DNA of 64,000 nucleotides, taken from positions 1 to 64,000 of the forward strand of contig CAIPAY010000133.1 in the NCBI GenBank assembly GCA_903863195.1, given 5' to 3'. This document shows, piece after piece, positions 29,337 to 33,890 of the stretch. The position numbers were made by a program, and so were the translations under genes. The stretch comes from an uncultured Holophagaceae bacterium. GTDB lineage: Bacteria > Acidobacteriota > Holophagae > Holophagales > Holophagaceae. Under the pieces are notes generated by a model. The model did no database searches and was not told where the DNA came from. It was given only the letters and a program-made list of their open reading frames with translations. Position 1 is the stretch's first letter. Every line of letters starts with the position of its first letter.

Positions 29337-29974
29337 CCCGGCTGCTGCAGGGCCTGGGGATCTGGGGCCTCGGCCTGGCCCTGGCCCTGAACCTCCCGGG
29401 CTCGGCCTGGAAGGCGGCGGCGCCTCCTGCCTTCCCCTGGGCGGCCCTGGGTCCCGCGGCCCTGGCCACCGCCAGCCTCGCCCTCCTGGCGCCGCTGCTG
29501 GTCTGGCTGGGCGGCCCGGCCCTGGCTGCGCGGCGGTCCCTGGCGCTGCTGGAGGCGCCCCCGGAGCTGCTCTGGGCGGCGCTGCTGCTGGCGCTGTGGC
29601 CCCCGGCCTGGGGACCTCCGGCCCAGACCGCCTGGCTGCTGGCCTTCCTCGCCGCGGCCCTGCCCAGCGAGGTCCGCTGGCTCGCCCAGGCCCTGCCCGG
29701 GGAACACCCGCTCCCGCAGGCCTGGGGCGAGCGGGCCACGCGGCGCGTGCGGTGGCTCGTGCTGAGGCGGCTGGGGGTGCGCTGGCTCGCGGCCCGCCTG
29801 CCCGTCTGGCTTACGGCCACCCTGGTGCTGGAGCGGATGCTGGGCGTGCCGGGCCTCGGCACGGACTGGCTGACCCGCGTGGCGGGCCGGGACCACCGCG
29901 GCCTGGCGATCTGGGTGCTGTGCCTGGCCGGTCTCTGGCTCCTGACCCGGCCCTGGCACCGGGAGGCGGCGTGA
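29333..29974 (+). CDS. ABC transporter permease (DppB-like, short)
   Basis: Start overlaps the SBP stop; hydrophobic segments and LTATLVLERMLGVPGLGTDWLTRVAGRDHRGL typical of peptide permeases. Confidence 0.7.
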   Translation: MTRLLQGLGIWGLGLALALNLPGSAWKAAAPPAFPWAALGPAALATASLALLAPLLVWLGGPALAARRSLALLEAPPELLWAALLLALWPPAWGPPAQTAWLLAFLAAALPSEVRWLAQALPGEHPLPQAWGERATRRVRWLVLRRLGVRWLAARLPVWLTATLVLERMLGVPGLGTDWLTRVAGRDHRGLAIWVLCLAGLWLLTRPWHREAA

Positions 29975-30687
29975 GCACGGTCTGGCGGCTGGCCTTCCTT
30001 GCGGCCCTGCTGCTGCCGGACCTGGCCCTCGACCCCTTCCGGGGCGGCCAGCAGGGCAGCCTCCGCCACCTCCTCGGCACCGATGAGCTGGGCCGGGACG
30101 CCCTGGTGCGGCTGCTGCTGGCTGCGGCGCGGAGCCTGGGCTTCGCCAGTGCCTGCGCCCTGCTGGCCCTGGCCCTGGGCCTGCTGCTGGCCTGGCCCGG
30201 CCGCGGCCTCGCCGGAGCCTGGTCCGCCCTGCGCGGCCTGCCGCCCCTGCTGTTTCTGCTGCCTCTGGCCGCAGCCGCCGGGGGCCTGGACCCCCTGCCC
30301 CTGGGGCTGCTGCTGGGGACCCTGCTGGCGCCGCACCTGGAGCCGGCCCTCCACACCCGGGTGGACCTCTTCCGGCGCTCCCCCGCCTGGGCCGCCGAGC
30401 GGACCCTGGGGGCGCCCTGGCCCTCGATCCTGCGCCGCTGGGCCCCCTACGGCTGGCGGCAGGCCGCCGCGCTCTTTCCCAGCGCCTGGCTGGCGGCCCT
30501 CTGGGGCGAGGCCACCCTCGGCGCCCTGGGGCTGGGGCCAGGGCCGGGCCACGACAGCCTGGGCCGCCTGCTCGCCGAAGAGCTCCCCCGCCTCAGCGCC
30601 GACCCCACCCCCCTCGCCTGGGCCGCCCTCGCCACCGTGTTGCTCCTCGCCGCCCTGAGCGCGCCGAGTAGGGGAGAGAAAGATTGA
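29971..30687 (+). CDS. ABC transporter permease (DppC-like, short)
   Basis: GTG start overlaps previous stop; LLGTDELGRDALVRLLLAAARSLG is the DppC signature. Confidence 0.78.
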   Translation: MSTVWRLAFLAALLLPDLALDPFRGGQQGSLRHLLGTDELGRDALVRLLLAAARSLGFASACALLALALGLLLAWPGRGLAGAWSALRGLPPLLFLLPLAAAAGGLDPLPLGLLLGTLLAPHLEPALHTRVDLFRRSPAWAAERTLGAPWPSILRRWAPYGWRQAAALFPSAWLAALWGEATLGALGLGPGPGHDSLGRLLAEELPRLSADPTPLAWAALATVLLLAALSAPSRGEKD

Positions 30688-31050
30688 AAAGACAACAAAA
30701 AGGGTTCATCGCGCTTTAGCGGGGTGCCTTCCGGGTGTGTTACAGGTCTGGGCTGGGCTCCCCAACCTGGAGCGGCCCATCCCCTTCATCCCCTGCATCC
30801 CTGTTAATAAAACAAGAAGGAACAGGGATAAAGGGGATGAAGGGGATACCGACCCTGATGGCGGGAGCTGCTCCCTTGGCCTGATCTACTTGCGCTGCGG
30901 CGCAGTCGAAGGCCCCCCAACACTACGATTCCTGTCCTGGCGCCTGGGTGGCGATCGGTTTCGGGTCCTTCGCCCCGTTCCGGCGCTGGGATCTAACGAA
31001 AACCAAGGCGCCTCCCCCAGTAAAGCGCGTTGAATCAGTTGTTCTTTTCT
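30685..31050. repeat. Fold-back element bounded by imperfect inverted repeats (~45 bp)
   Basis: Left GAAAAGACAAC..TTCATCGCGCTTTAGCGGGGTGCCTT; reverse complement of right end GAAAAGAACAAC..TTCAACGCGCTTTACTGGGGGAGGCGCCTT. Confidence 0.6.
30779..30847. repeat. Hairpin built of three 9-nt units and their inverted copies
   Basis: ATCCCCTTC-ATCCCCTGC-ATCCCTGTT, 15-nt spacer, AACAGGGAT-AAAGGGGAT-GAAGGGGAT; 25/27 arm positions complementary. Confidence 0.9.
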
Positions 31051-31066
31051 AAGTGCACTCCGGACT

Positions 31067-32326
31067 TCAAGGCCTACCCAGCTTGGCCTGCATGATGGCG
31101 AGGATCTCGGTGTCGGCGCCGGCCATGCCGCGCTGGGCGAGGCGGCCCAGGTTCTCCAGGGAGGCCGCGCCCCCGGCGCCCACGATGCCATCCGTGGCGG
31201 GGATGCCGACGCCCGCCAGGGCCAGGCTGGCCGAGCGGAAGGCCGCCTCCACGCCGGTCATGGCCTTCATGGCGCAGCCGACCTTGGCGCCGTCGCAGAT
31301 GAGGCCCGCCAGGTTGCCCACCATGTTCTGGATGGCCAGGTCCAGCTGGGCCGGGCCGCCGCCGCCCAGGTGCACCAGTCCCGCCGCGATGCCGATGCCC
31401 GCGGCGTTGGAGGCGCCGCACACGGCGGAGAGGGTACCCAGCCGCTGGGTCGTGGCCGTCGTGAGGAGGCAGGCCAGGGCCAGGGCCTCCTCGATGCGCG
31501 CCTCCGGGTGCCCCTGCTCCCGCGCCCACAGGCCCAGGGCCACGGCCACGGTGATGCCCTTGTTACCGGAACCCGCCAGGGACATGACCGTGAGCGGCTC
31601 GCCGGACATGCGGCCCAGCACCCCGGCGCTCACCAGCCGCGGGATGCGCAGCCAGGGCTCGCCCCCCGGCGGGGGCACGAAGCCCGCCGGGAAGTGCGAG
31701 ACCGAGTGCTCGGCCATCGCCAGATTGAGGGCCAGACCCTCCCGGAGACGGGCCCGGTCGGCCTCGGTCAGGGTGCCCGCCAGGACCACCAGGTCCTCCA
31801 GCGACATGGCCCCCACCTGCTCGCGCACAGAGTCCGCCGCCCCGGCACCCGCCGCGGCCAGGGGCACCGGCACGGCCACGCCGTTGGCCTCCAGCAGCAC
31901 CAGCCGCGTGTGCTCCTGCTCCAGCACCGCCCGGCCCACGCCCGCCGCGCCCCCCACCGTGCAGCTGATGTAGAGCTCCGTGCGGGTCGCGTCCACCTCC
32001 ACCTGGAGGGCCTCCAGGGCAAGCAGCCGGGCCGCCTGCGCCCGCGCCTCCGGGGTGACGGACTCAAAGATCTGCAGGGCCGGCGAGGGGTCCGGCAGCA
32101 CCGCGCCCAGGGCCAGGGCCCAGAGCACGCCGGACTGGTGGCCGCTGTTGGGGATGCCCACCGCGTGGCAGTTCTTGTAGGTGCGGGCATCCAGCACCAG
32201 CTGCACCGACCGCGGGCTGCCCCCGGCCTGCCCGGCCGCGAGGCAGGCGGCGTAGGCCACGGCAGCAGGTTCCGTGCAGCCCAGCGCGGGCCGCCACTCG
32301 GCAGACAGATACTCAGTCAGGTTCAT
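31067..32326 (-). CDS. UPF0597/CyuA-like L-cysteine desulfidase / serine dehydratase alpha-type protein
   Basis: ALGCTEPAAVAYAACLAAG; KNCHAVGIPNSG; SLAGSGNKGITVAVAL; VCGASNAAGIGIAAGLVHLGGG. Start placed at ATG 32326 (MNLTEYLSAEW). Confidence 0.8.
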   Translation of the reverse strand: MNLTEYLSAEWRPALGCTEPAAVAYAACLAAGQAGGSPRSVQLVLDARTYKNCHAVGIPNSGHQSGVLWALALGAVLPDPSPALQIFESVTPEARAQAARLLALEALQVEVDATRTELYISCTVGGAAGVGRAVLEQEHTRLVLLEANGVAVPVPLAAAGAGAADSVREQVGAMSLEDLVVLAGTLTEADRARLREGLALNLAMAEHSVSHFPAGFVPPPGGEPWLRIPRLVSAGVLGRMSGEPLTVMSLAGSGNKGITVAVALGLWAREQGHPEARIEEALALACLLTTATTQRLGTLSAVCGASNAAGIGIAAGLVHLGGGGPAQLDLAIQNMVGNLAGLICDGAKVGCAMKAMTGVEAAFRSASLALAGVGIPATDGIVGAGGAASLENLGRLAQRGMAGADTEILAIMQAKLGRP

Positions 32327-32400
32327 GCGCAACCTCGGGAAGCCATTCTCGCCGAATCGGACCCTGCCGCTGGTCACATGACCTGCGCTAAGCTGCCTCC

Positions 32401-32877
32401 ATGAGCGCACTCATCGGCAAACCCATCCCCGCTTTCTCCCTGCAGGACGACCAGGGCGCCACAGTCACGGCCAAGGACCTCGAGGGTCACTGGACCGTGC
32501 TCTACGCCTACCCCAAGGACAGCACCCCCGGCTGCACCACCGAGTCCTGCGACTTCCGCGACAACCTGGCCCGCGTCCAGGCCCTGGGCGCCCAGGTCTA
32601 CGGCATCAGCCGCGACAGCCAGAAGAGCCACCTGAACTTCATCGCCAAGCAGAGCCTGACCTTCCCCCTGCTGTCCGATCCCGAGTGCGCCCTGCTGGCC
32701 CCCCTCGGCGCCTTCGGCAAGAAGATCATGTACGGCAAAGAGGTGCAGGGCATCATCCGCAGCACCTTCCTCATCGACCCCAAGGGCGTCATCCGCCACG
32801 TCTGGCCCAAAGTCAGCGTCAAAGGGCACGTGCAGGATGTGCTGGAGGTCCTGGCGGGACTGCAGGAAAAGGGCTAA
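32401..32877 (+). CDS. bcp: Thioredoxin-dependent peroxiredoxin, Bcp family
   Basis: LYAYPKDSTPGCTTESCDFRDNL, typical Bcp active site. Confidence 0.9.
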   Translation: MSALIGKPIPAFSLQDDQGATVTAKDLEGHWTVLYAYPKDSTPGCTTESCDFRDNLARVQALGAQVYGISRDSQKSHLNFIAKQSLTFPLLSDPECALLAPLGAFGKKIMYGKEVQGIIRSTFLIDPKGVIRHVWPKVSVKGHVQDVLEVLAGLQEKG

Positions 32878-32882
32878 GGACC

Positions 32883-32966
32883 TTCACCACGAAGACCACA
32901 AAGACCACGAAGGAAGACAAGGCTTTCTGTCTTTATTCTTCGTGCTCTTTCCATCTTCGTGGTGAA
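32883..32966. repeat. Long intergenic hairpin A with 9-nt periodic arms
   Basis: TTCACCACGAAGA (32883-32895) pairs perfectly with TCTTCGTGGTGAA (32954-32966); arms contain ACCACGAAG-ACCACAAAG-ACCACGAAG. Confidence 0.9.
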
Positions 32967-32988
32967 TCCGCAATTACAAGAAAGGCGG

Positions 32989-33072
32989 AACCACAAAGAA
33001 CACAAAGGGCACAAAGAAGGACCAGATTCCCAGCCCCTTCTTTTCTTTGTGTCCTTTGTGTCCTTTGTGGTT
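32989..33072. repeat. Long intergenic hairpin B with 9-nt periodic arms; followed by T-rich tract
   Basis: AACCACAAAG-AACACAAAG-GGCACAAAG ... CTTTGTGTC-CTTTGTGTC-CTTTGTGGTT, then TTAATTATTTCTTTTTTT (may terminate bcp). Confidence 0.9.
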
Positions 33073-33110
33073 AATTATTTCTTTTTTTAACGACTTGAGC
33101 CAGCCCCGGC

Positions 33111-33890
33111 TCACCCCGCCATGATGCTGAAGCCGCCGTCGACGTAGAGCACCTGGCCGGTGACGCCGCGACCCATGTCGCTGACCAGGAACACGCCGGC
33201 GTCGCCCACTTCGAGCTGGTCCGTGTCCTTCTGCAGCGGGGTGTGGGACCGGTGGTGCTTGAGCTTGGTGCCGATCCCCGGGATGGCCGAGGCGGCCAGG
33301 GTCTTGATCGGACCGGCGGAGATGGCGTTCACGCGGATGCCCTGGGGACCCAGGTCCGCGGCCAGGTAGCGCACGCTGGCTTCCAGGGCGGCCTTGGCCA
33401 CGCCCATCACGTTGTAGCCGGGCACCACCCGCTCGGCCCCCAGGTAGCTGAGGGTCACAATGGAACCGCCCTCGGGCATGAGGGGCTGGGCCGCCTGGCT
33501 GACCGCCGCCAGGGAATAGGCGCTGATGTCATGGGCCACGCGGAAGTCCTCGCGGCTGGTATCCACGAAGCGGCCCTCCAGCGCATGGCGCGGTGCGTAG
33601 GCCACGGCGTGCACCACGAAGTCGAGCTTGCCCCACTTCTTGCGGATCTCGTCGAAGGCCATGACGATCTGGCTATCGCTGCCCACGTCCATGGGCAGGA
33701 GCAGGGGGTTCTTCAGCTCAGCCGCCAGCTCGTGGACATTCTCCCCCAGGCGCTCGTTCTGGTAGGTCAGGCAGAGCTGGGCACCGGCCTCGGACACCCG
33801 CTGCGCGATGCCCCAGGCGATGGACCGCTTGTTGGCCACGCCGATGATGAGCCCCCGCTTGCCTTCCAACAACCCGCCCTTGACCACCAT
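33111..33890 (-). CDS. fabI: Enoyl-[acyl-carrier-protein] reductase (NADH)
   Basis: GLLEGKRGLIIGVANKRSIAWGIAQ; SYLGAERVVPGYNVMGVAKAALEASVRYLA; NAISAGPIKTLAASAI. Confidence 0.95.
   Translation of the reverse strand: MVVKGGLLEGKRGLIIGVANKRSIAWGIAQRVSEAGAQLCLTYQNERLGENVHELAAELKNPLLLPMDVGSDSQIVMAFDEIRKKWGKLDFVVHAVAYAPRHALEGRFVDTSREDFRVAHDISAYSLAAVSQAAQPLMPEGGSIVTLSYLGAERVVPGYNVMGVAKAALEASVRYLAADLGPQGIRVNAISAGPIKTLAASAIPGIGTKLKHHRSHTPLQKDTDQLEVGDAGVFLVSDMGRGVTGQVLYVDGGFSIMAG

Follow-up and report, generated by a model that had tools for sequence, protein, structure and literature searches.

Intergenic tandem-array hairpins in a Holophagaceae genome and their candidate relationship to very small elements carrying GxxExxY or S23/IVP genes

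Cyanobacterial STRR sequences are intergenic tandem heptamers. Tandem GACAGAT heptamers also occur before the S23p ORF in the 23S rRNA intervening sequence (IVS) of Coxiella, which has a 28-bp inverted-repeat stem and in which the number of heptamers varies between strains (PMC4990558). In Geobacter metallireducens, sites of classes 1–4 consist of three to five tandem 7–9-mers each, mostly arranged as opposite-strand pairs at variable distance and present in multiple copies; in that report, these arrays are interpreted as putative IHF/HU "global regulator binding sites" (PMC2700814). For the TAACTGA repeats of Beggiatoaceae, it has been proposed that the mobile element could be a protein that binds the repeat (PMC4679880). 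Finally, REPINs are intergenic inverted-repeat hairpins, and related repeats flank the RAYT gene, which is thought to mobilize them in trans (PMC3116915).

Like REPINs, the hairpins analyzed here comprise two inverted repeats and are mostly intergenic, and related repeats flank a gene. In contrast to REPINs, their arms are tandem arrays of 7–10-nt units, and the flanked genes belong to the PD-(D/E)XK (GxxExxY) or four-helix-bundle families. REPIN–RAYT would be the closest functional analog, but we do not claim membership because the defining Y1 transposase is absent: the Y1 (HUH) model PF01797 had no match in the genome under study (G000; 3.6 Mb, 93% complete), whereas 5 of 14 control genomes were positive. 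A RAYT/Y1 transposase was therefore rejected as the mover. The four-helix-bundle genes encode the 23S intervening-sequence protein (S23; PF05635), hereafter IVP. As in the 23S rRNA IVS, an S23p ORF lies between inverted ends with tandem heptamers (PMC4990558); however, known IVSs lie inside rRNA genes and are excised from the RNA by RNase III, whereas the IVP elements found here (the copy in the genome under study and those annotated on plasmids) are flanked by protein genes and lie outside 23S rRNA genes. No 23S IVS with GxxExxY was seen. STRR and TAACTGA repeats, which we liken by description, are also tandem heptamers, and heptamer arrays flanked IVP genes in the cyanobacteria covered here, but those repeats are presented as direct repeats and are not tied to IVP in the accessible text (PMC4679880). 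The Geobacter sites have the same paired-array architecture, which was thus already known, and a link to GxxExxY or IVP is absent from the accessible main text (PMC2700814); we found no such link in the open-access literature searched, and typical array sequences used as queries returned no paper within open-access coverage. The hairpins also resemble MITEs in being short and non-coding, with inverted ends, many copies, presence/absence differences between relatives and full relatives that bear an ORF. They differ in that the full element has no known transposase or clear target duplication and its ends consist of tandem units.

Three hairpins and their genome-wide family

All three hairpins of the original prediction were present in the window, the whole 64-kb stretch of DNA that was analyzed, and they occupied two convergent intergenic gaps. 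Each arm of element 1 (30779–30847; like the other hairpins, assigned to neither strand) consisted of three 9-nt units, ATCCCCTTC-ATCCCCTGC-ATCCCTGTT and, on the other side of a loop at 30806–30820, their inversion. Its neighbors, both outside the element, are an upstream permease-like ORF (29596–30687, plus strand; named from its translation) and a convergent gene (31067–32410, minus strand). The other gap lies between a peroxiredoxin-like gene (32401–32877, plus strand), upstream of element 2A, and a convergent FabI-like enoyl-ACP reductase gene (33111–33890, minus strand), both named from their translations. It held element 2A (32883–32966), a CACGAAG-flavor hairpin, and element 2B (32989–33072), a CACAAAG-flavor hairpin with the termini AACCAC...GTGGTT. 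Element 2A had been described as having a mirrored arm; the hairpin is real, but the mirroring is not exact, as the right arm, TTCTTCGTGCTCTTTCCATCTTCGTGGTGAA, is imperfect relative to the left.

A unit-agnostic scan of the window for hairpins with 22-nt arms that were at least 86% complementary detected only three hairpins, two of which were element 1 and element 2B, with lag-9 identities within the arms of 0.77 and 0.92, respectively; element 2A missed this strict threshold. Ten Markov shuffles of the window yielded one hairpin in total and none with lag-9 arms. Fold z-scores of the three hairpins against dinucleotide shuffles were −7.9, −8.2, and −8.2, and 0 of 200 shuffles folded as well. 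None of the three matched an intrinsic terminator, defined as a GC-rich stem with a short loop and a T run, and an Rfam search returned only miRNA models below threshold and none above the gathering score. In congeners, the gaps orthologous to these two gaps were empty or contained other flavors or ordinary-looking terminators. Ordinary GC-rich terminator-like hairpins occupied the 2A/2B gap in two congeners (L159 and L161), and at three further loci (L149, L153, and L157) about 800 nt including coding-like sequence was found at the orthologue of window positions 32879–33109, the 2A/2B gap of G000.

Across the genome, CACAAAGNNCACAAAG (at most one mismatch) had 120 matches versus 0 for the reversed control, and ATCCCTNNNATCCCT (at most two mismatches) had 306 versus 68. 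Further flavors were CACGAAG, CACCAAG, CGCAGAG, ACCGATGAAC, and the 7-nt GCTATCA. When 400 kb of the genome was scanned without regard to unit sequence, 18 hairpins had both arms tandem, compared with none in shuffled sequence and 4 in the mirror controls, and the unit length was 7, 9, or 10 in 17 of them. Hairpins of this kind were intergenic in 27 of 40 cases from four genome groups, as judged with a crude gene caller, and divergent (promoter) gaps were under-used (2 of 26 versus 141 of 550, p = 0.037). These counts and scans bear out the proposal that the hairpins form a dispersed class, located mostly between genes, whose architecture is conserved while the unit sequence varies; the architecture was enriched over controls, and copies existed beyond the window. 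The unit-agnostic scan alone was weak in genome G087 because hairpin counts were near background (7 real versus 7 mirror and 2 shuffled), and likewise in G096 (1 real versus 3 mirror and 1 shuffled). Six contigs of the G000 assembly (C7, C61, C130, C139, C161, and C165) start at or inside such repeats, and copies in this assembly are therefore probably under-counted. In genome G025, many ACCACAGAG pairs faced outward at short spacing ("inside out"), in the opposite arm order to that of GxxExxY flanks.

Element 1 lies within a longer repeat that is dispersed in the genome and spans about 336 nt (approximately 30703–31038, assigned to neither strand) with imperfect inverted ends (30690–30724 and 31015–31050). 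The genome has several further copies of this repeat, with about 74–82% identity, that bear the same ATCCC hairpin, and element 1 may have spread together with its 336-nt repeat. Arm orientation in the ATCCC family is mostly opposite. Arms of the ATCCC flavor were also found flanking GxxExxY at L097, in a congener.

Genes bracketed by inverted arrays

At L029, the ORF adjoining an array was identified as GxxExxY. Seven PF13366 matches (one truncated at a contig end) and a single PF05635 match were present in the genome. Family assignment was confirmed by NCBIfam and Pfam with scores over the cut-off, GxxExxY corresponding to TIGR04256/PF13366, a predicted PD-(D/E)XK nuclease family with an invariant D...E.K (D...ExK) motif. 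Inverted arrays lay on both sides of four GxxExxY genes (L061, L062, L064, and L065) and of the IVP gene (L068), which shares the contig of the window and lies about 30 kb outside it; at the three remaining GxxExxY loci, an array adjoined the gene. CACAAAG, CACGAAG, CGCAGAG, CACCAAG, and ACCGATGAAC each had a GxxExxY locus in this genome that bore such arrays. The element at L065 carries a flavor cognate to that of element 2A, and the flavor of element 2B was found beside the GxxExxY gene at L066.

The inversion of the flanks was examined across the phylum by local alignment of upstream flanks with reverse-complemented downstream flanks, using 100 Markov shuffles for comparison. Real flanks scored above all 100 shuffles at 29 of 35 GxxExxY loci and 27 of 31 IVP loci, versus 2 of 33 and 1 of 30, respectively, for control flanks 700–1050 nt away; one high scorer (L084) was a long repeat of another kind. 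Unit length depended on the cargo (Fisher p = 1.7e-10). The best arm period was 8, 9, or 10 at all 30 scored GxxExxY loci (8, 14, and 8 loci, respectively), whereas it was 7 at 23, 8 at 6, and 9 at 1 of 30 IVP loci. Among array-only hairpins, 7-nt units accounted for 8 of 10 in IVP-only genomes versus 2 of 13 in GxxExxY-only genomes, which are small numbers from a sample in which some contigs had been picked for holding a cargo gene. Neither the bracketing of two gene families by the arrays nor the link between family and unit length had been foreseen in the original prediction. In genome G097 (L128–L141), a GxxExxY gene was found in truncated form, together with its arrays, inside an IS-like repeat that exceeds 1.3 kb and is present in more than 20 near-identical copies. 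We rejected this amplification as evidence of self-mobility because the repeated unit extends well past the fragment, which looks like a passenger of the IS-like repeat.

Arrays and cargo genes co-occurred. Genomes with at least six ACCACNRAGN{1,3}CACNRAG sites, a cut set after the counts had been seen, were defined as array-rich and made up 36 of 119 phylum genomes. GxxExxY was present in 31 of the 36 array-rich genomes versus 15 of the 83 others (p = 2e-12, in a test that ignores relatedness), and the IVP association was weaker (28 of 36 versus 30 of 83, relatedness again ignored). GxxExxY was not found in the array-rich genomes G018, G030, and G118. Within the genus, the arm flavor of IVP genes matched the dispersed flavor, which was detected in six of six genomes with matching arms and in none of five with other arms. 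IVP genes with AGCTNTC-type arms occurred in G000, G106, G124, G125, G143, and G156, each of which had 25–50 pattern matches, whereas the genomes whose IVP genes had other arms (G119, G122, G127, G135, and G151) had zero AGCTNTC array matches. G157 and G139 were exceptions, with AGCTNTC repeats and no IVP found, and an IVP fragment in G149 yielded no arms. The agreement between arm and dispersed flavor partly contradicts, within the IVP class, the earlier suggestion that structure rather than sequence is recognized.

At one site, a whole element was found as a discrete insertion with precise ends. In genome G076, cdsA and dxr are separated by a GxxExxY ORF that has arms of the CACGAAG type. 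This element of 475–482 bp was present in 8 of 47 genus genomes, and in at least 22 other genomes of the genus the two genes abut, leaving a clean empty site. Its left edge is the cdsA stop codon and its right edge lies just before the dxr start; any target duplication, assessed for the full element at one clean empty site, is at most 2 nt. On a tree of the flanks, the presence of the element requires seven changes, at least five of which are forced by well-supported branches, and four sister pairs contain one filled and one empty site (G076/G157, G140/G143, G027/G053, and G142/G134). Precise loss, repeated gain, and exchange by homologous recombination are possible causes of this scatter. The dN/dS of GxxExxY at this site was 0.02–0.08 where dS was estimable, at high dS (~1–3), and the protein is therefore maintained, under strong purifying selection. 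The element is old, as judged from the same dS values.

Proposed origin of the hairpins and rival explanations

We consider it probable that the hairpins are related to very small selfish elements, of which they would be MITE-like versions lacking an ORF; these elements would work like REPIN–RAYT but use other proteins. A full element comprises a single ORF of about 125–145 aa with arrays of short direct repeats in inverted orientation on either side, about 0.45–0.6 kb overall, and comes with two types of cargo, GxxExxY with 8–10-nt units and S23/IVP with mostly 7-nt units; elements 1, 2A, and 2B have units of the GxxExxY type. We infer that the protein acts on its own repeat arms, probably recognizing them as a single-stranded hairpin or cruciform, and that it would mobilize or copy its own element and, in trans, the ORF-less hairpins, as is thought for RAYTs and REPINs. 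In the case of GxxExxY, a putative nuclease, the first step might be nicking by the conserved D...ExK site, and insertion between genes would presumably keep the cost to the host low. A broader proposal is put forward tentatively, in which GxxExxY and S23/IVP would mobilize a new class of minimal elements, with each protein recognizing hairpin arms by repeat period and flavor. Several observations weigh against the favored explanation: no transposition event or clear target duplication was seen, array-rich genomes without cargo were found, and the arm orientation of the ATCCC family is mostly opposite; moreover, the cdsA–dxr element is old, its scatter could be due to homologous recombination, and the spread of element 1 could be due to the 336-nt repeat.

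Alternatively, an unlinked mover, such as a host enzyme, a reverse transcriptase, or another transposase, could have spread the arrays, with GxxExxY and IVP as passengers kept for a selfish or defensive function of their own. The same arm type is indeed common to two unrelated proteins, some genomes in which no cargo was found are rich in arrays, and the S23p of Coxiella is thought not to be expressed (PMC4990558). A common mover, however, predicts neither the cargo-dependent unit length nor the match between IVP arms and the dispersed flavor, and Y1/RAYT is absent from the genome; we regard this alternative as unlikely. The hairpins might instead be host regulatory or transcript-end elements (terminators, RNA stabilizers, or IHF/HU sites as in Geobacter) that merely regulate the cargo genes. 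The lack of an intrinsic-terminator match, orthologous gaps that are empty or contain other flavors, the presence or absence of the whole element as a unit, and the dependence of period on cargo make this improbable, despite the convergent orientation of both gaps, the terminator-like hairpins that fill the element 2 gap in two congeners, the strong folding, and the under-use of divergent promoter gaps. A passive origin, in which slippage generates tandem units and template switching the inverted arm without dedicated machinery, seems very improbable to us, since near-identical units at many unlinked sites of one genome need copying between sites, and since a discrete element with empty sites and the presence of such arrays at both gene families in other phyla also speak against it. 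Slippage, the origin suggested initially, fits the variation in unit number (3 versus 7 units at L029, as well as the Coxiella heptamers, which differ between strains; PMC4990558) but on its own leaves the gene association, the precise insertion, and the empty sites unexplained.

If the broader mobile-element proposal is true, it would bring together dispersed tandem-array hairpins, 23S rRNA intervening sequences, heptamer repeats, and the "regulator sites" of Geobacter, providing one testable explanation for puzzles that have been separate, namely the dispersed tandem-array hairpins of many bacterial genomes and the origin of rRNA intervening sequences. It would also cover the IVP genes reported from CRISPR-cas operons (PMC3936711) and two protein families that are annotated but unexplained, GxxExxY and the "four helix bundle protein." A unit length specific to the cargo (7 versus 8–10 nt) is a sharp prediction that can be checked by binding or cleavage assays. 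For annotation, such ORFs within operons may be insertions and not pathway genes.

Recurrence in other phyla

The array-bracketed anatomy recurred on plasmids of Bacteroidota, Gemmatimonadota, and Cyanobacteria. GxxExxY genes lay between arrays on plasmids of Gemmatirosa, Bernardetia, and Bacteroides finegoldii (beside radA), and IVP genes with short-unit arrays were found on plasmids of Pseudanabaena and Anabaena (between cas6 and cas4), as well as of Nostoc edaphicum, Calothrix, Gemmatirosa, and Geminocystis. The IVP array pattern was weaker in Picosynechococcus (between cmr2 and cmr3) and Stanieria, and a convincing array pair was absent on the plasmid records of Sphingomonas, a Fusobacteria record, and Nostoc HK-01. 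On the Sphingomonas plasmid (L268), GxxExxY lies between fabD and fabG with only an upstream array evident, and on the Fusobacteria plasmid (L270), it is flanked by direct (non-inverted) copies of AGATTTAATCCGTGTACCTAT. IVP genes have been reported in CRISPR-cas operons, without an explanation of the inserted-element kind (PMC3936711). Three of the loci analyzed here (L272, L274, and L280) were IVP elements within CRISPR operons, in the arrangements cas6–IVP–cas4 and cmr2–IVP–cmr3, and insertions of this kind could account for the earlier reports of IVP genes in cas loci.
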